64,000 nt of DNA from Candidatus Sulfurimonas marisnigri (GCF_015265475.1 NZ_CP054493.1:558001-622000); one strand, 5' to 3'. Positions 51,608-59,245 are shown, counted from the stretch's first letter. Notes: generated by a model not told the origin, from the letters alone. A program made the numbers and translations.

Positions 51608-51682
51608 TGGCTCCGGATACTGGATTCGAACCAGTGACCAAGTGATTAACAGTCACCTACTCTACCGCTGAGCTAATCCGGA
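51608..51682 (-). tRNA. tRNA-Asn (anticodon GUU)
   Basis: 75-nt cloverleaf with encoded CCA. Acceptor TCCGGAT pairs with ATCCGGA, anticodon loop CTGTTAA (GUU), T-loop GGTTCGAATCC. Confidence 0.96.
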
Positions 51683-51705
51683 ATGTAAAAAGTTCTCTTA
51701 AAAAA

Positions 51706-51782
51706 TGGTGTCAGAGGGGGGACTTGAACCCCCGACCCCCGGCTTATGAGACCAGTGCTCTAACCAGCTGAGCTACCCTGAC
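51706..51782 (-). tRNA. tRNA with CAU anticodon, probably elongator tRNA-Met
   Basis: 77-nt cloverleaf with encoded CCA; anticodon loop CTCATAA. The first acceptor pair is G-C, so it is not the initiator. Elongator Met and tRNA-Ile2 (CAU with lysidine) cannot be separated with certainty from sequence alone. Transcribed ahead of tRNA-Asn, 23 bases apart. Confidence 0.9.
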
Positions 51783-51935: not shown

Positions 51936-52919
51936 ATGATTTACAAAAAACTGTTTATTTTCTTTGGCATAACGCTTATGTTCGCAGGGTGTGCAACAAT
52001 GCAAAAGACGAAAACACATGAAACACCCGCTAGTACAGTACCAGAAGTTAGCAAGAGCATTAAAGAGAAAAAAGCGGATGAGCCACTTGGCTTAAAAAGA
52101 AAAGTAGCTATTGGGCGTTTTTCCAATGAAACTAGGTATGGTCAAAGTTTTTTTATTGATGAAAATAACGACCGCATAGGAAAGCAGGCTATGGATATTT
52201 TATCTTCAAAGCTTTTTGAGACGGGTAAATTTATTATGCTTGAGCGTGCAGATTTATCGAAAATTCAAAAAGAGCTTGAAATGGAGGGGTTTTCTTCATT
52301 AAAAAATTCTGCTGATTATCTCATTTTAGGCTCTATTACCGAATTTGGTAGAAAAGAGGTGAGTGATGTCGGCATTTTCAGCAGAGTTAAAAAGCAAGAA
52401 GCTTTTGCCAAAGTGCATATCCGTATAGTAGATGTGAGCACAGGACAAATTATCTATTCCGAGGAAGGAAAAGGAAGCGCATACAGTGAAGCCGGAAGTA
52501 TCATGGGTGTTGGTGCCAAGAGTGCATATGATGGACAACTAAATGATAAAGCGATAGATGCTGCTATTTCTAACTTGGCATCAAATATTATTGAAAATAT
52601 GTTAGATAAACCATGGCATGGGTATATTCTTGGGTATGAAGATGGAAACCTTATAACCTCTGGCGGAAAAAGTCAAAATATTAAAGTTGGAGATACTTTT
52701 GATGTAATAAAAGAGGGCAAAAAAATTAAAAACCCTCAGACAAACACTATGATTACTCTTCCTGGAAAAAAAATAGCATCAATAGAAATTATAAATACGC
52801 TTGGCGATACTCCTGATACTGAAGTCTCATTAGCAACTGTGACGAGTGGCAACCTAGATGATTATATTGTAAAAAGAGAGTTCTCTGGTCTTTATATTGA
52901 AGTAAAAAAGGATAAATAA
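51936..52919 (+). CDS. CsgG/HfaB-like outer-membrane lipoprotein
   Basis: 327 residues. Lipoprotein signal with lipobox MFAGC (Cys19), a Ser/Thr/Lys-rich linker, then a CsgG-type domain (KVAIGRFSNETRYG; ERADLSKIQKELEMEG; ADYLILGSITEFGRKE; IVDVSTGQIIYSEEG) and a ~90-residue C-terminal SH3-like extension from NIKVGDTFDVIKEG on. CsgG forms the curli secretion pore, and relatives are found with DUF4810 and DUF799 lipoproteins in non-curli bacteria. No curli subunit gene is visible. First of nine adjoining genes; ribosome-binding site AAGGAG. Confidence 0.87.
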   Translation: MIYKKLFIFFGITLMFAGCATMQKTKTHETPASTVPEVSKSIKEKKADEPLGLKRKVAIGRFSNETRYGQSFFIDENNDRIGKQAMDILSSKLFETGKFIMLERADLSKIQKELEMEGFSSLKNSADYLILGSITEFGRKEVSDVGIFSRVKKQEAFAKVHIRIVDVSTGQIIYSEEGKGSAYSEAGSIMGVGAKSAYDGQLNDKAIDAAISNLASNIIENMLDKPWHGYILGYEDGNLITSGGKSQNIKVGDTFDVIKEGKKIKNPQTNTMITLPGKKIASIEIINTLGDTPDTEVSLATVTSGNLDDYIVKREFSGLYIEVKKDK

Positions 52920-53218
52920 TGCGATATTTTTTAATTAGTCTTGTACTTTTGTCAAGCTTGTATTTTTCGGGATGTGGCTACAAAGAGGGCGTTTCGGCTG
53001 ATGATCAAAGATCATTTTTGTATTTTTCCGGTGATACTTCAGGGGTAACAGTATTTGTGGATGATTCAAAAGGCTTTACAGTGAAATCCGGTAGAGATAA
53101 TCAATACAAGATAAAACCGGGCAAACACACCGTGCGGATATATAGAGATGGCAATCTTATTGTTAATCGTGAAATATATGTTGGTGACAACATTGCCAAA
53201 GAGATTGGAATAGAGTAA
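52919..53218 (+). CDS. Small lipoprotein, PEGA-like
   Basis: 99 residues. Lipobox FSGC (Cys19). The mature part (GVTVFVDDSKGFTVKSG; IKPGKHTVRIYRDGNLI) reads like a single PEGA-type beta-sandwich, a small surface domain. It overlaps its neighbours on both sides by one base. Function unknown. Confidence 0.75.
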   Translation: MRYFLISLVLLSSLYFSGCGYKEGVSADDQRSFLYFSGDTSGVTVFVDDSKGFTVKSGRDNQYKIKPGKHTVRIYRDGNLIVNREIYVGDNIAKEIGIE

Positions 53219-53601
53219 TGAGAATCTCAAAGAAGATAAAAGTATTGTTTCCAATAGCTGTAGCTTTTAGTATAGTCGGTTGTGTCCAACAACCACAAGC
53301 TCTGTACAATTATGGGGACTACAGCGATAGCTATTATGCAAACAAAAAAAATATGAGCGATGAATCAACATTGAAGCTTCAGCAGTCTATGGAACAAGCA
53401 ATAGAAAAAGCCGGTGAGAGCATATCTGGCCGTGTACCTCCAGGGATGTATGCAAATTTAGGTTACATGTATCTAAAGAGTGGCAATCCCAATGGAGCGA
53501 TTTCAAATTTTAAAAAAGAGAAGTCAGTTTACCCTGAATCAGCACGTTTTATGGATCGTATAATTAAAAAAGTCGAACTTGTGGAGGGTAAATTAAAATG
53601 A
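53218..53601 (+). CDS. DUF4810 lipoprotein
   Basis: 127 residues. Lipobox IVGC (Cys22), then LYNYGDYSDSYY and a pair of helices with a TPR-like look (GMYANLGYMYLKSGNPNGAISNFKKEK), as in the DUF4810 family. Members accompany CsgG-like and DUF799 lipoproteins. Overlaps the next gene by 4 bases. Confidence 0.85.
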   Translation: MRISKKIKVLFPIAVAFSIVGCVQQPQALYNYGDYSDSYYANKKNMSDESTLKLQQSMEQAIEKAGESISGRVPPGMYANLGYMYLKSGNPNGAISNFKKEKSVYPESARFMDRIIKKVELVEGKLK

Positions 53602-54287
53602 TAAATATGAAACTCTTTAAGATTGCAATATTTGTTTTAATCACATTGTTGATTTCAGGTTGTGCACAAAAACATATAACAAAAGCAGATGCATACCCAA
53701 ATATGTATGAGGAGTTGCCACGTTCAATTTTAGCACTACCTCCAATGAATGAAAGCAGTGATGCTCAGGCTAAAGACTATTATATGACAACAGTTGAGGT
53801 CCCTTTAGCTCTTTCTGGATATTATGTATTTCCTGTTGAGATGGTTAGCGATATTATGAAACAAGAGGGAGTCTATGATACAGAGGAACTTTACAAAATG
53901 CCGCTTGGCAAGTTCTATGAATATTTTGGCGCCGATGCAGTTTTATATACGCGCATAAAAAAATGGGATGTCTCTTACATGGTGCTTGCTTCTAGCCTGA
54001 CCGTCAGTATTGAAGCAGAAATCGTATCAACAAAAACATCACAGCAATTATGGAGACACACCGGCACTGTAACAGTTGACCTAGGCGGAGGAGATACTGG
54101 AAATGGGATTGCAGGCTTAATTGCAAAAGTAGTGATTGCAGCTGTAAATACCGCCTCGGCAGATTATGTCAAGTATGCACATGTTGCAAACAATAGATTG
54201 CTTTCTACTATACCTGCTGGTCCATATCATGAAATGTATCTAAAAGATCAGGGTATAGAGTTGGGCAACCAGAGAGGTTACAGGTAA
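53598..54287 (+). CDS. DUF799 (GNA1162-like) lipoprotein
   Basis: 229 residues. Lipobox ISGC (Cys22). The mature region (PRSILALPPMNESSDAQAKDYYMTTVEVPLALSGYYVFP; GADAVLYTRIKKWD) matches DUF799, known from the meningococcal GNA1162 lipoprotein whose fold resembles TolB/CsgG-type N-terminal domains. Completes a CsgG-DUF4810-DUF799 trio with one extra small lipoprotein inserted. Confidence 0.87.
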   Translation: MINMKLFKIAIFVLITLLISGCAQKHITKADAYPNMYEELPRSILALPPMNESSDAQAKDYYMTTVEVPLALSGYYVFPVEMVSDIMKQEGVYDTEELYKMPLGKFYEYFGADAVLYTRIKKWDVSYMVLASSLTVSIEAEIVSTKTSQQLWRHTGTVTVDLGGGDTGNGIAGLIAKVVIAAVNTASADYVKYAHVANNRLLSTIPAGPYHEMYLKDQGIELGNQRGYR

Positions 54288-54292
54288 AAAAA

Positions 54293-55021
54293 ATGAGAAA
54301 AATATTTTTAATTTTACTTGCTTTTGCTATCTTGTTAGTTGCTGATGAAGCGCATGAGATTATGCAAAAAGTTGACAATAATATTCGCGGTAAAAATATT
54401 TATATGAAAATAAGCATGAAAGTGGTCTCTTTAAACCATGAGAGAAATATGCATATGGAGACTTGGTCGCAGGGTAGCAAAAAAAGTTTTGTTAAAGTTT
54501 TGTATCCGCCAAAAGACAAAGGGATTACCTTTTTAAGTCTGGATAATCAGATGTGGCAGTATGTTCCTAAAATAGAGAGAACTATAAAAATTCCGCCATC
54601 CATGATGCTGCAAAAGTGGATGGGAAGCGATATAACTAACGATGATGTGGTTAAGCAAAGCTCCATTGTAGATGATTATAACCCAAAGATAGTTAAAAGA
54701 GATGGCAATATCGTGACTATGGAACTTATACCAAAAGATGATGCTGCGGTTGTGTGGGGGAAGATTGTTTCTCAGATAGACACTTCTACATACACATCCA
54801 AAAAAGATATTTTCTATGATGAAAAGGGAGTGGAAGTTAGATATTTTGTGTATAAAAATGTTAAAAAGTTTGGAGAGTATTATCTCCCTACCTATTGGCG
54901 CGTTGAATCTGTAGATAAGAGAGACAACTATACAGAGATGATTTTAGAAGATGTAAAATATGATATAGAGATTTCCGAAAAGTACTTTAGTAAAAGTGCA
55001 TTGAAAAGGTTTTCTAGGTAA
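54293..55021 (+). CDS. LolA-like periplasmic lipoprotein-sorting protein
   Basis: 242 residues with a cleavable signal peptide (1-~17) and no lipobox. The half-open barrel pattern of LolA/LppX-type carriers is visible: SMKVVSLNHERNMHMETWSQG, SFVKVLYPPKDKGITFLSLDNQMWQYVPKIERTIKIPPSMMLQKWMG, and EYYLPTYWRVES, with the last matching the family found next to MMPL or ABC exporters. It probably shuttles a lipid or lipoprotein across the periplasm. Five bases after the DUF799 gene, one-base overlap with the permease gene. Confidence 0.85.
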   Translation: MRKIFLILLAFAILLVADEAHEIMQKVDNNIRGKNIYMKISMKVVSLNHERNMHMETWSQGSKKSFVKVLYPPKDKGITFLSLDNQMWQYVPKIERTIKIPPSMMLQKWMGSDITNDDVVKQSSIVDDYNPKIVKRDGNIVTMELIPKDDAAVVWGKIVSQIDTSTYTSKKDIFYDEKGVEVRYFVYKNVKKFGEYYLPTYWRVESVDKRDNYTEMILEDVKYDIEISEKYFSKSALKRFSR

Positions 55022-56241
55022 TGTTTAAGCTAGCGCTAAAAAACATTGTTTTTTACAAAGGTCGCTCTATAACTACAGCCATTTTGACTTTTGTATCTGC
55101 TATGCTTTTTGTAGTCTTTGTATCATGGCAAGACGGTTCACACAACTCTATGCTTGAGAATTCGCTTAAAATATATACCGGTGCAATTGAGATATATCAT
55201 AAAGATTATCGGGATATCGGTGGCAATGAGTATCTTATACAAGATGCTAAAACAATCACGGACAAACTTTCAAAAATAGAGGCCATTGAGGCATTTAGTA
55301 CGAGATATGAGACTTACGGTCTGCTCTCAAATAAAGAGTACTCGGCAGCTTCAATGATAGCTGGGATTGAACCATCAAAAGAGAGGGCGTTGAGTTCACT
55401 ATACTCAGCTCTGAGAGAGGGTGAGTTTTTGAATGAAAATTCAGGAAACTGCCTGTATATGGGTGCAGAGTTGGTTAAAAAACTTCGTTTACATGTAGGC
55501 GATGAAGTTAGCTTTATCGGGGGTGCAAGTGATGACTCCTTTGCTGCAGATATCTTTAAACTCTGCGGGGTTTTTAAAACAGGTTCATTTGAGTTTGACG
55601 GGAGTTCTTCTTTTATAGCCAGAAGCTATTTTGACAAGCTTATGTATGCGCAGAACAAAGCTTCATATATAACAATTAAGTTGAAAAATCTTGATGATGT
55701 AGATGCTGTAAACAGTGAGATATTAAATGTTTTAAATGATGAAAACCTTGAGTCTCTTACATGGAAAACTCTTATGAAGACAATGGTTGAGGCCATGGAA
55801 GTTGACAGTGTCTTTGGGTATATCTCTTTGTCACTTTTTCTTGTCGTAATATTTTTTGTGATTATGATTTACGGCTTTGTAAATGTTAGTTCGCGCATAA
55901 AAGAGTTTGGGGTTCTTAGATGCATAGGGTTATCAAAATCAAATATATTTTTATTGCTCTTTTATGAGATATTAATACTTTCCAGCGTTGCCATCATCCT
56001 AGCCGTACCCATAGCTGGTTATATCTGCTTCTATTTTGAATTAAACCCTGTTGTTATCGAGGGGATTGCCGAGATGTACAAGGATTACGGGATAGTTTCA
56101 GATGAGATACCGTTTGACTTCAATATGTTTACTATATCTTGGAATATAGGAGTCATATATATACTTAACTTTTTGAGCATTTTATACCCCTACATGTACA
56201 TAAACTCATTTGAACCGATTGAGGCGACAAGACATGTATAA
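55021..56241 (+). CDS. FtsX/LolC-E-type ABC permease (first of two)
   Basis: 406 residues. One helix near residue 18, a large periplasmic MacB-PCD-like domain (~45-255), then three helices (~265-290, 310-335, 370-395). The FtsX core around FVNVSSRIKEFGVLRCIGLSK is typical for mechanotransmission ABC systems such as LolCDE and MacB. The last 8 bases overlap the second permease gene. Confidence 0.9.
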   Translation: MFKLALKNIVFYKGRSITTAILTFVSAMLFVVFVSWQDGSHNSMLENSLKIYTGAIEIYHKDYRDIGGNEYLIQDAKTITDKLSKIEAIEAFSTRYETYGLLSNKEYSAASMIAGIEPSKERALSSLYSALREGEFLNENSGNCLYMGAELVKKLRLHVGDEVSFIGGASDDSFAADIFKLCGVFKTGSFEFDGSSSFIARSYFDKLMYAQNKASYITIKLKNLDDVDAVNSEILNVLNDENLESLTWKTLMKTMVEAMEVDSVFGYISLSLFLVVIFFVIMIYGFVNVSSRIKEFGVLRCIGLSKSNIFLLLFYEILILSSVAIILAVPIAGYICFYFELNPVVIEGIAEMYKDYGIVSDEIPFDFNMFTISWNIGVIYILNFLSILYPYMYINSFEPIEATRHV

Positions 56242-57445
56242 ACTAATCCTTAAAATGGCTTGGAAAAACTCATTTTTGAGGCCGGCTAGAACGCTTCTTG
56301 TAATAATTATGATTGCGGTCAGCATGAGTATGATGCTTGGTATTCAAGGTCTCTATGACGGAATGGTTGTCAGCATGATAGATAAGAACAAAAGAAGCGA
56401 GAGCGGAGATGTAAGTATCTACGCAAAAGATTACAGAATCGAAAAAGATATAAAATACAGAGTTGAAAATGCAGATAAGATAAAAGAGGATATTCAAAAG
56501 ATAGATGGTGTTGAGGCGGTAGTTCTTAGGCTTAGAGCAGATGGGCTTCTCTCAACAGCGAGAAAATCATCCTTTGCCTCTGTTATAGGCATAGATTTGG
56601 AAGAAGAGGAGAAATTCGGAGCGTTTAGTGAGTTTTTAAAAGAGGGCAATATTAATTTGCAAAAACGTGGCGCAGTGATAGGAATAGAGCTGGCAAAAAC
56701 ATTAAAGGTTCGTATTGGTTCTAAAGTCATATTCTCTACCCAGGATAGCTCCGGGGAAATAAACTCTATTGCTCTTCGTATTAGAGCAATTATTCAGACA
56801 ACAAACATCTCTCTTGATAGTAGCGGCATCTTCATAGATATAAATCAACTCCATAAACTTTTAGGAACAACTTCAAAAGAGGCTACTCAGATTTCTGTTA
56901 AAAGTAAAAATAAGAAACTCTACGGCACTTTAAAAGAAAAATATTCACACTTGGATGTTAAAAGTTTTTTAGAACTCCAACCGATGATAAAACAGATGGA
57001 GGATATGATGGTTATATTTAACTCCATAACTTTTTCAATAGTCATGAGTGTTGTTTTTATCGGGATTTTTGGTGTTATGTATGTATCTGTTTTAGATAGG
57101 ATTCGTGAGTTTGGTATTATGATAGGGATAGGAATGCACTACAAATATATACGATTACAAATATTTTTAGAGGCCATTGTGGTCGGACTGCTTGGGTATT
57201 TGGGAGGTGCTTTTTTAGGAGCTATATTGCTTATGTATTTAAAAGATTATGGACTAGACTTAAGCTCTTTTTCGGATGCTTTAGAGATGTGGGGCTATGA
57301 AGCGGTTATATATGGAACTATAAAACTATCATATTTTACAACTACTTTTTTAGCGATTATGAGCGCATCACTTTTAAGTGTACTTATTCCGCTAAGAAAA
57401 ATAAAAAAATTAAACCCAATTGAAGTGATTAAGGCAGACAAATGA
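56234..57445 (+). CDS. FtsX/LolC-E-type ABC permease (second of two)
   Basis: 403 residues from ATG at 56234 (MYKLILKMAWKNSFLRPART), preferred to an upstream start that would overlap the first permease more. Same four-helix plus periplasmic-domain design, with MYVSVLDRIREFGIMIGIGM in the FtsX core and SVLIPLRKIKKLNPIEVIKA at the C-terminus, a usual ending in LolC/LolE. Two non-identical permeases suggest a LolC/LolE-like heterodimer. Overlaps the ATPase gene by 4 bases. Confidence 0.9.
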   Translation: MYKLILKMAWKNSFLRPARTLLVIIMIAVSMSMMLGIQGLYDGMVVSMIDKNKRSESGDVSIYAKDYRIEKDIKYRVENADKIKEDIQKIDGVEAVVLRLRADGLLSTARKSSFASVIGIDLEEEEKFGAFSEFLKEGNINLQKRGAVIGIELAKTLKVRIGSKVIFSTQDSSGEINSIALRIRAIIQTTNISLDSSGIFIDINQLHKLLGTTSKEATQISVKSKNKKLYGTLKEKYSHLDVKSFLELQPMIKQMEDMMVIFNSITFSIVMSVVFIGIFGVMYVSVLDRIREFGIMIGIGMHYKYIRLQIFLEAIVVGLLGYLGGAFLGAILLMYLKDYGLDLSSFSDALEMWGYEAVIYGTIKLSYFTTTFLAIMSASLLSVLIPLRKIKKLNPIEVIKADK

Positions 57446-58113
57446 TAAAACTACAAAATGTAAATAAGTATTTTTATAAGGGTGAAGCAAGAGAAGTTCA
57501 TGCTCTTTGTGATATAAACTTAACAATACAAAAGGGTGAGTTTACCCTTTTTAGCGGTCCCTCAGGTTGTGGGAAAACAACACTTTTAAATGCAATCGGC
57601 GCTCTTGACAGCATTGATAGCGGAGAGATATATCTAGACGATAAAGAGATAAGTTCACTTAATAAAGAAGATAGAACAACACTAAGACTCAATGAACTCG
57701 GTTTTGTGTTTCAAGCTTACAACCTTGTACCGGTTCTAAATGTTGAGCAAAATATAGGTTTTGTTATGAAACTTCGCGGCTTCAGTGAAGGGGAGATAAA
57801 AAGAAGAGTAATCGAAGTTGCCTCAATGTTGGAGATTGACAATAAGCTCAAATCACTTCCAAATGCACTAAGCGGAGGACAGCAACAAAGAGTTGCTGTG
57901 GCTAGGGCAGTTGCAGCAAAACCAAAGATTATTTTAGCAGATGAGCCGACCGCAAACCTAGACTCTAAAAACTCGCAAAAACTTATGGATATGATGAAAG
58001 AGCTTAATGAAAAAGAGGGTGTAAGTATACTTTTTGCCTCACATGATGAATATATTTTAGAGAATGTAAGACGGGTTATAAAACTAAATGATGGCGCAAT
58101 AGTAGATGGCTAA
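57442..58113 (+). CDS. ABC ATPase, LolD/MacB type
   Basis: 223 residues. Walker A SGPSGCGKTT, Q-loop FVFQAYNLVPVLNVEQN (the LolD/MacB hallmark), signature LSGGQQQR, Walker B IILADEPTAN and H-loop FASHDE are complete. Energises the two permeases encoded upstream. Overlaps the downstream barrel gene by 8 bases. Confidence 0.95.
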   Translation: MIKLQNVNKYFYKGEAREVHALCDINLTIQKGEFTLFSGPSGCGKTTLLNAIGALDSIDSGEIYLDDKEISSLNKEDRTTLRLNELGFVFQAYNLVPVLNVEQNIGFVMKLRGFSEGEIKRRVIEVASMLEIDNKLKSLPNALSGGQQQRVAVARAVAAKPKIILADEPTANLDSKNSQKLMDMMKELNEKEGVSILFASHDEYILENVRRVIKLNDGAIVDG

Positions 58114-59245
58114 AAAACTTTTGACTGTTTTACTTTTGCTCGTACATGTAGTATATGCAGATTTTGAGTACAAGATTAATAATAGTAACTTTACAATCTC
58201 TCAAGGCTCTATATTTCCAAATGAAGATGAAACTTATATATACAACTATAACAGGTTGAGGTTTCGCGGTGATTATACTGACAATGGCTTTTTTAGTACT
58301 GTTATTACTGATGGTGTGAACTACTTTGGAAATGAGTTTATTGACTCTAATACATTTGAATATATAAAGCATATAAAGTCTGATACTCCGTATAAAACAA
58401 AGACAAATGACGGCTCACTTCATGCCAAGGTATATAGGCTGTACGGTGGTTATGAAGATAATAAAAACAGATTAGTCATTGGCTTGCAAAATATATCAAT
58501 GGGAGTAGGGCGAATATGGACGCCAACAAACTTGTTTAACCCTAAAAACTCGTATGCTCTTGAACCAGATGAGGTATTTGGTGTGGCAGCTCTCTCTTAC
58601 ACAAGACATATAAGCGACACGTCACATGTAAGCATCGTACTCAGTCAGAAAGAAGATGATAGTTTTAAATACCTAGCAAGATACAAAGCATTTTTAGGGT
58701 TTGGGGATGTAGCGGTCAATCTAATTAGTTCTAAGGAGACGAAGATGATAGGTTATGAGATAGAGGCAAATCTTGGCGATACAGGTGTTGAGGTAAGAAG
58801 TGAGGGGGCTTACTTAAAAAATAAACTTCTACATGTAGACTTAAAAGAGAGAGATGAGGAGTTCTTTCAGGGGATAGTCGGAGCAGATTATGGTTTTGAA
58901 AGTGGAGTGACTATTGTGGTTGAAGCTTTGTATAGTTCTGAAAAATTCAGTTATGAAGAAATTTTGCTAAACATTGAGTCAGAGGCTCTCTCAAATTTAT
59001 TATATTCAAATTTTTACATGGGAACTTCATTGAGTTATAGTTTTACACTTTTTTTGGACGGCTCATTTAGTTTTATTGAGAGTTTCAATGACAAAAATTC
59101 ACGTTTTATTGCGCCGAGCCTTACTTACACGCTAAACGATTTCAACTCATTTAAAGTAGGTGCTTTAATTCAAAATGGAGCTAATAACAGCGAATTTGGA
59201 ATGAACCCCAACAGTTACTATTTTAATTATTCATTTTCATTTTAA
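58106..59245 (+). CDS. Predicted outer-membrane beta-barrel (porin-like)
   Basis: 379 residues. Signal peptide MAKKLLTVLLLLVHVVYA, then alternating strands over the whole length and a C-terminal Phe (YYFNYSFSF), the Bam recognition signature. The segment GLQNISMGVGRIWTPTNLFNPKN resembles barrel proteins that accompany LolA-like carriers and MMPL/ABC exporters. The last gene of the cassette, translationally coupled to the ATPase; may receive or release the transported molecule at the outer membrane. Confidence 0.75.
   Translation: MAKKLLTVLLLLVHVVYADFEYKINNSNFTISQGSIFPNEDETYIYNYNRLRFRGDYTDNGFFSTVITDGVNYFGNEFIDSNTFEYIKHIKSDTPYKTKTNDGSLHAKVYRLYGGYEDNKNRLVIGLQNISMGVGRIWTPTNLFNPKNSYALEPDEVFGVAALSYTRHISDTSHVSIVLSQKEDDSFKYLARYKAFLGFGDVAVNLISSKETKMIGYEIEANLGDTGVEVRSEGAYLKNKLLHVDLKERDEEFFQGIVGADYGFESGVTIVVEALYSSEKFSYEEILLNIESEALSNLLYSNFYMGTSLSYSFTLFLDGSFSFIESFNDKNSRFIAPSLTYTLNDFNSFKVGALIQNGANNSEFGMNPNSYYFNYSFSF

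Follow-up and report, generated by a model that had tools for sequence, protein, structure and literature searches.

Nine same-strand genes that run together in the genome of Candidatus Sulfurimonas marisnigri would, on the reading that we favour and to which we give a probability of about 0.6, be two independent operons that abut one another rather than one nine-gene unit, namely a four-gene lipoprotein set at 51936-54287 (module A) and a five-gene set at 54293-59245 (module B) which would act as an export route for hydrophobic molecules. Unless a genome or locus is named, positions are those of the window, by which we mean the whole 64,000-nucleotide stretch of DNA that was analysed (NZ_CP054493.1:558001-622000).

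Layout of the locus

An earlier note on this DNA had described nine open reading frames on one strand at 51936-59245, and these are present and of the kinds it had named, with neighbouring frames overlapping by 1-8 bases or separated by gaps of at most five bases.

51608..51782, minus strand: tRNA-Asn and tRNA-Met, directly upstream of the nine-gene run, at the edge of DNA identity with the sister genome
51936..52919, plus strand: module A gene 1, predicted CsgG-family lipoprotein, 327 aa (PF03783, E 2.8e-29; lipobox FAGC)
52919..53218, plus strand: module A gene 2, predicted small lipoprotein, 99 aa (no Pfam or NCBIfam match; lipobox FSGC)
53218..53601, plus strand: module A gene 3, predicted DUF4810 lipoprotein, 127 aa (PF16068, E 1.4e-24; lipobox IVGC)
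53598..54287, plus strand: module A gene 4, predicted GNA1162-like (DUF799) lipoprotein, 229 aa (PF05643, E 2.9e-41; lipobox ISGC; solved relative 4hrv, E 4e-26)
54288..54292, plus strand: module A/B junction, a 5-base gap that this genome shares with one sister species and that was seen nowhere else
54293..55021, plus strand: module B gene 1, predicted periplasmic LolA_like carrier, 242 aa (PF17131, E 1.9e-43; signal peptide, no lipobox)
55021..56241, plus strand: module B gene 2, predicted FtsX/MacB-type permease 1, 406 aa (PF02687, PF12704 (MacB_PCD); hydropathy)
56234..57445, plus strand: module B gene 3, predicted FtsX/MacB-type permease 2, 403 aa (PF02687, PF12704)
57442..58113, plus strand: module B gene 4, predicted ABC ATPase of the MacB/LolD/FtsE kind, 223 aa (PF00005 (ABC_tran), E 2.4e-32)
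58106..59245, plus strand: module B gene 5, predicted outer-membrane beta-barrel, 379 aa (alignment, AlphaFold2 model and fold matches; signal peptide, no lipobox)

The most likely start of permease 2 is the ATG at 56234, with a TTG at 56210 as a longer alternative. Our scan returned 31 promoter-like sites against 31.2 expected from a shuffled background, which is no excess, and six terminator-like sites, every one of them on the opposite strand. In this lineage module B would probably be carried on the transcript of module A.

Modules A and B are unlinked in most genomes that carry both

The nine genes had been proposed to form one conserved machine in which a parallel extractor, carrier and outer-membrane acceptor are joined to the CsgG-type set. 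We looked for linkage in 60 relatives and then in 135 Sulfurimonas genomes, using GNA1162 as the marker of module A and the barrel as that of module B. GNA1162 was found in 25 of the 135, the barrel in 42 and both in 12, and in ten of these 12 the markers were unlinked, leaving linkage only in this genome and in that of its sister species (G062). Neighbourhoods were read for 22 of the 25 GNA1162 loci of the genus, this locus included; nearly all have the same four-gene lipoprotein set and the gene following GNA1162 is unrelated to module B in 20 of the 22, the exceptions being the same two genomes. A sample of 298 genomes from across the phylum held GNA1162 in 51, the barrel in 15 and both in six, with the two markers far apart in three genomes of other genera (G258, G328 and G417); most of its GNA1162 genomes belong to another family, where the barrel was not found. 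Overall, of the 15 genomes with both modules, 13 have them apart and two have them linked, which is the outcome that had been named beforehand as counting against the nine genes being one conserved machine, and the module A set stood beside none of 80 module B loci.

The sister genome is 91% identical in DNA to the window from 51577, at the tRNA-Asn edge, to 59569, at the end of groES, and since the two species are sisters and have a single junction in common at this level of identity, their linkage is most simply explained by one ancestral event. The tRNA-Asn/tRNA-Met edge is a probable site of island insertion.

A single surface-assembly or export machine of nine genes, with the CsgG-type set as its outer-membrane part or its cargo, is thus highly improbable because the modules are usually unlinked in relatives, many genomes having module A alone and many having module B alone. 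In its favour are the 5-base gap on a common strand in two species and the slight co-occurrence of the markers, which share 12 genomes of the genus where chance would give 7.8 (one-sided p 0.04) and are also found together a little too often in the sample from the phylum (p 0.03), these values being uncorrected for shared ancestry and genome completeness; an excess of this size may reflect a loose functional tie between the modules. What stands of the earlier proposal is a complete set of extractor, carrier and barrel parallel to the Lol proteins of the cell, to which the CsgG lipoproteins do not belong as conserved components. A tight cluster with base-pair overlaps, which looked like one machine, turned out on comparison to be two modules that had come together in one lineage.

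Two observations concern the surroundings of these genes. At one locus (L105) another CsgG-domain protein is encoded upstream of module B, with an opposite-strand gene between them and the other module A genes absent, and we treated this as chance. The sister genome has a phage-type integrase (L183, 15939-17000) near the tRNA-Asn/tRNA-Met edge of identity.

Module A is a lipoprotein set of a known kind

The CsgG, DUF4810 and GNA1162 families all occur in one cluster in module A with a lipobox on each, and judged by these family matches module A is the known set with one extra small lipoprotein. Members of the set are close together in Neisseria meningitidis, as NMAA_0892 (DUF799) and NMAA_0894 (CsgG) (PMC5282872); the same families are clustered there, whereas the extra 99-aa lipoprotein between CsgG and DUF4810 is a feature of this genus. 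An orthologue of this gene is present in nearly every module A set examined in the genus, at 29-60% identity outside the sister species. By eye, the 99-aa product (52919-53218), which holds this position genus-wide, bears a likeness to a PEGA-type domain. Gene 1 shares the PF03783 domain and a lipobox with the curli channel CsgG, but its neighbours are lipoproteins of other families and Pfam identifies no curli gene among the remaining eight; its structure model was poor (pLDDT 64). Campylobacter cj0089-0091 was considered as a relative of module A and set aside, the excerpted portion of its description (PMC3100323) making no mention of CsgG, DUF or GNA1162.

Module B combines a type VII ABC motor with a LolA_like carrier

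The two permeases of module B differ from one another (25% identity, E 1e-30) and both have FtsX and MacB_PCD domains. Hydrophobic segments of permease 1 lie at 14-38, 258-293, 301-342 and 370-394, with a large domain between the first two. With PF02687 and PF12704 in both permeases and PF00005 in an ATPase whose motifs are intact (Walker A GPSGCGKT, LSGGQ and Walker B), the motor is by its domain signatures a type VII (MacB/FtsX) ABC transporter. Among the NCBIfam matches listed, the ATPase reached no model's cut-off, LolD included (194 bits, cut-off 308). Both permeases match the LolC/E model TIGR02212 (E 1e-30 and 3e-21) at 106 and 76 bits against a cut-off of 362, a cut-off that may be too strict for this phylum because the presumed LolC/E of the genome itself, at 248, is also below it. 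The carrier, which matches PF17131 (LolA_like) and not PF03548 (LolA), is assigned by profile to the LolA superfamily, and its solved relatives are 9tp6, 3buu, 4z48 and 3bk5.

The MacB_PCD domains and the MacB/DevA-like ATPase would also fit a drug or peptide efflux pump of the MacAB-TolC kind. We regard this as very unlikely, as neither a membrane-fusion adaptor nor a TolC-family gene is among the nine genes by Pfam and NCBIfam, a LolA-superfamily carrier and a single-chain barrel being encoded instead, and the permeases and ATPase are separate chains.

The fifth gene is predicted to encode an Occ/AlgE-like barrel

The AlphaFold2 model of the fifth product (pLDDT 82, pTM 0.76) matched solved Occ, OprD and AlgE barrels with Z of 22-23 over about 300 residues, and on this model the gene is predicted to encode an outer-membrane barrel that resembles Occ/AlgE channels. 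The sequence has a conserved stretch, GLQNIxMGVGRIWTPTNLFNPKN, and ends in a C-terminal F. No Pfam family was found in the 20 members searched, the PDB gave no match by sequence at E up to 1, and no Omp85 entry was among the 50 fold matches listed. Membership of DUF1302 found no support, there being no Pfam match and no significant hhalign match to the DUF1302 protein of the genome. The barrel is related to that of a second ABC set in the same genome (hhalign 85%, E 6e-6).

Module B is widespread and has varied neighbours

When the alignment of the carrier was used to scan genome contigs, at least 578 relatives were recovered, the best 80 of which were read and include Sulfurimonas, Sulfurovum and Sulfuricurvum (Campylobacterota), Desulfobulbaceae, Desulfocapsa and a Margulisbacteria MAG. 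Where there was room (at least 4.4 kb of contig past the carrier) the exact order LolA_like-FtsX-FtsX-ATPase-barrel was found in 41 of 52 loci. The other 11 include four with an extra or broken open reading frame inside the block (L114, L120, L121 and L134), and in the remainder at least one labelled gene is missing at the similarity level applied. We see in module B a genuine and widely distributed variant of LolA_like-based export that has been little described. In L056 and L098 about five unrelated genes split the block between permease 2 and the ATPase, both halves being intact.

The flanks of module B vary and the gene just upstream often encodes a regulator or signalling protein that differs by lineage, as would be expected of an inducible exporter. 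TetR-type genes are upstream in four settings (L058 and three others; L178/L179; L057; L177). In L052, L102, L126 and L147 this place is taken by a response regulator accompanied by its kinase, in L151 and L164 by a Crp-like protein and in some loci by GGDEF/EAL proteins. Only a minority of loci have a transcriptional regulator adjoining module B, and this locus is not one of them; in other species the module is probably inducible by its local regulators. The other recurrent neighbours that were identified are housekeeping genes, and we saw no recurrent lipoprotein gene beside the module in the loci examined.

A conserved cluster of response regulator, histidine kinase, 134-aa protein and 266-aa protein occurs in L052 (6108-9116) and eight other loci, often beside module B. 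Its 134-aa protein has a signal peptide and no Pfam match, and is encoded elsewhere in this genome (G000 at 2209913); the 266-aa protein has a weak TSP_3 match.

Related systems in this genome and in other species

A check for separate Lol proteins that had been suggested for this locus found in other parts of the genome both a LolC/E-like permease and a LolA (PF03548), the latter at 1338643 with 180 bits where the NF000663 cut-off is 120; this rules out module B as the only Lol system of the organism. Two further LolA_like sets were seen. One is of the ABC type with a single permease, in the order ATPase-permease-LolA_like-barrel (G000:C1:1639598-1643373; L061 11099-14873), and is also found in L065 and in part on the short contig L066. 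The other is an AmeABCD-like RND pump, MMPL (HAE3)-LolA_like-DUF1302 (G000 about 1264366-1268972; L062 6367-10973). One contig (L058, 2240-12902) carries an MMPL/LolA_like/DUF1302 set directly beside an ABC/LolA_like/barrel set, the two facing each other.

The closest described relative of module B in make-up is the Borrelia BBJ23-29 cluster, a computational proposal in which a single permease would act as a homodimer alongside a barrel of the Omp85 type and two TPR proteins (PMC13078400), whereas module B has two different permeases, a predicted Occ/AlgE-like barrel and no TPR genes in the block. It was also the only such cluster to turn up in the literature searched for a LolA-like/FtsX/ATPase/barrel block. 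The closest relative with experimental evidence is AmeABCD of Castellaniella defragrans, deletion of which lowers tolerance to monoterpenes (PMC6394551). An inner-membrane motor, a LolA-superfamily periplasmic protein and an outer-membrane barrel are common to both, but the motor of AmeABCD is an RND (MMPL) protein and that of module B an ABC transporter, so that membership fails on the motor, and its DUF1302 barrel finds no counterpart by Pfam or significant profile match in the module B barrel. It is the MMPL/LolA_like/DUF1302 set of this genome that has the same make-up as AmeABCD. By analogy, module B may work like parts of both BBJ23-29 and AmeABCD.

With LolCDE-LolA-LolB of E. coli module B shares two different FtsX-type permeases, a LolD-like ATPase and a LolA-superfamily carrier. 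It differs in its PF17131 carrier, its own barrel, its varied local regulators and the presence of other Lol proteins in the genome. No LolB family match was found in the block by Pfam or NCBIfam, and the fifth gene encodes a predicted barrel without a lipobox; both the carrier family and the LolB result set module B apart from the canonical Lol system.

Proposed function of module B

LolA-family proteins carry lipoproteins in well-studied cases, and a carrier of this superfamily together with permeases that both match the LolC/E model could point to a second, dedicated Lol pathway in which the barrel replaces LolB and which serves a few special or surface-exposed lipoproteins. The same role has been proposed for Borrelia BBJ23-29 (PMC13078400). 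We consider this unlikely given that the carrier is not of the PF03548 family, the barrel resembles Occ/OprD/AlgE-type channels, the TetR-type regulators suggest a small-molecule inducer and no lipoprotein gene recurs nearby. The LolA-superfamily carrier, the related ABC set, the AmeABCD-like MMPL set, the varied regulators and the lack of a recurrent lipoprotein neighbour together favour export of hydrophobic molecules over lipoprotein sorting.

Under hydrophobe export module B, whose products would, we infer, form a complex, probably takes greasy molecules from the inner membrane and delivers them to the outer one. The hydrophobic cavity of the LolA_like protein would hold the cargo on its way through the periplasm, and at the outer membrane the dedicated barrel would either accept it or give it passage, making module B an ABC-powered counterpart of the RND/LolA_like/DUF1302 pumps. 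More tentatively, and at a little under even odds, module B may be a regulated and so far undescribed path on which an ABC motor drives lipids to the outer membrane; its permease would be a heterodimer and its Occ/AlgE-like barrel would serve as acceptor, and together with its single-permease ABC and RND counterparts it would form one superfamily of interchangeable motors on LolA_like carriers.

How lipids and other greasy molecules pass across the periplasm is a long-standing question. Module B is compact, with motor, carrier and putative acceptor in five genes, it has relatives by the hundred, and as related ABC and RND sets are present in the same genome the roles of motor and carrier are directly comparable.
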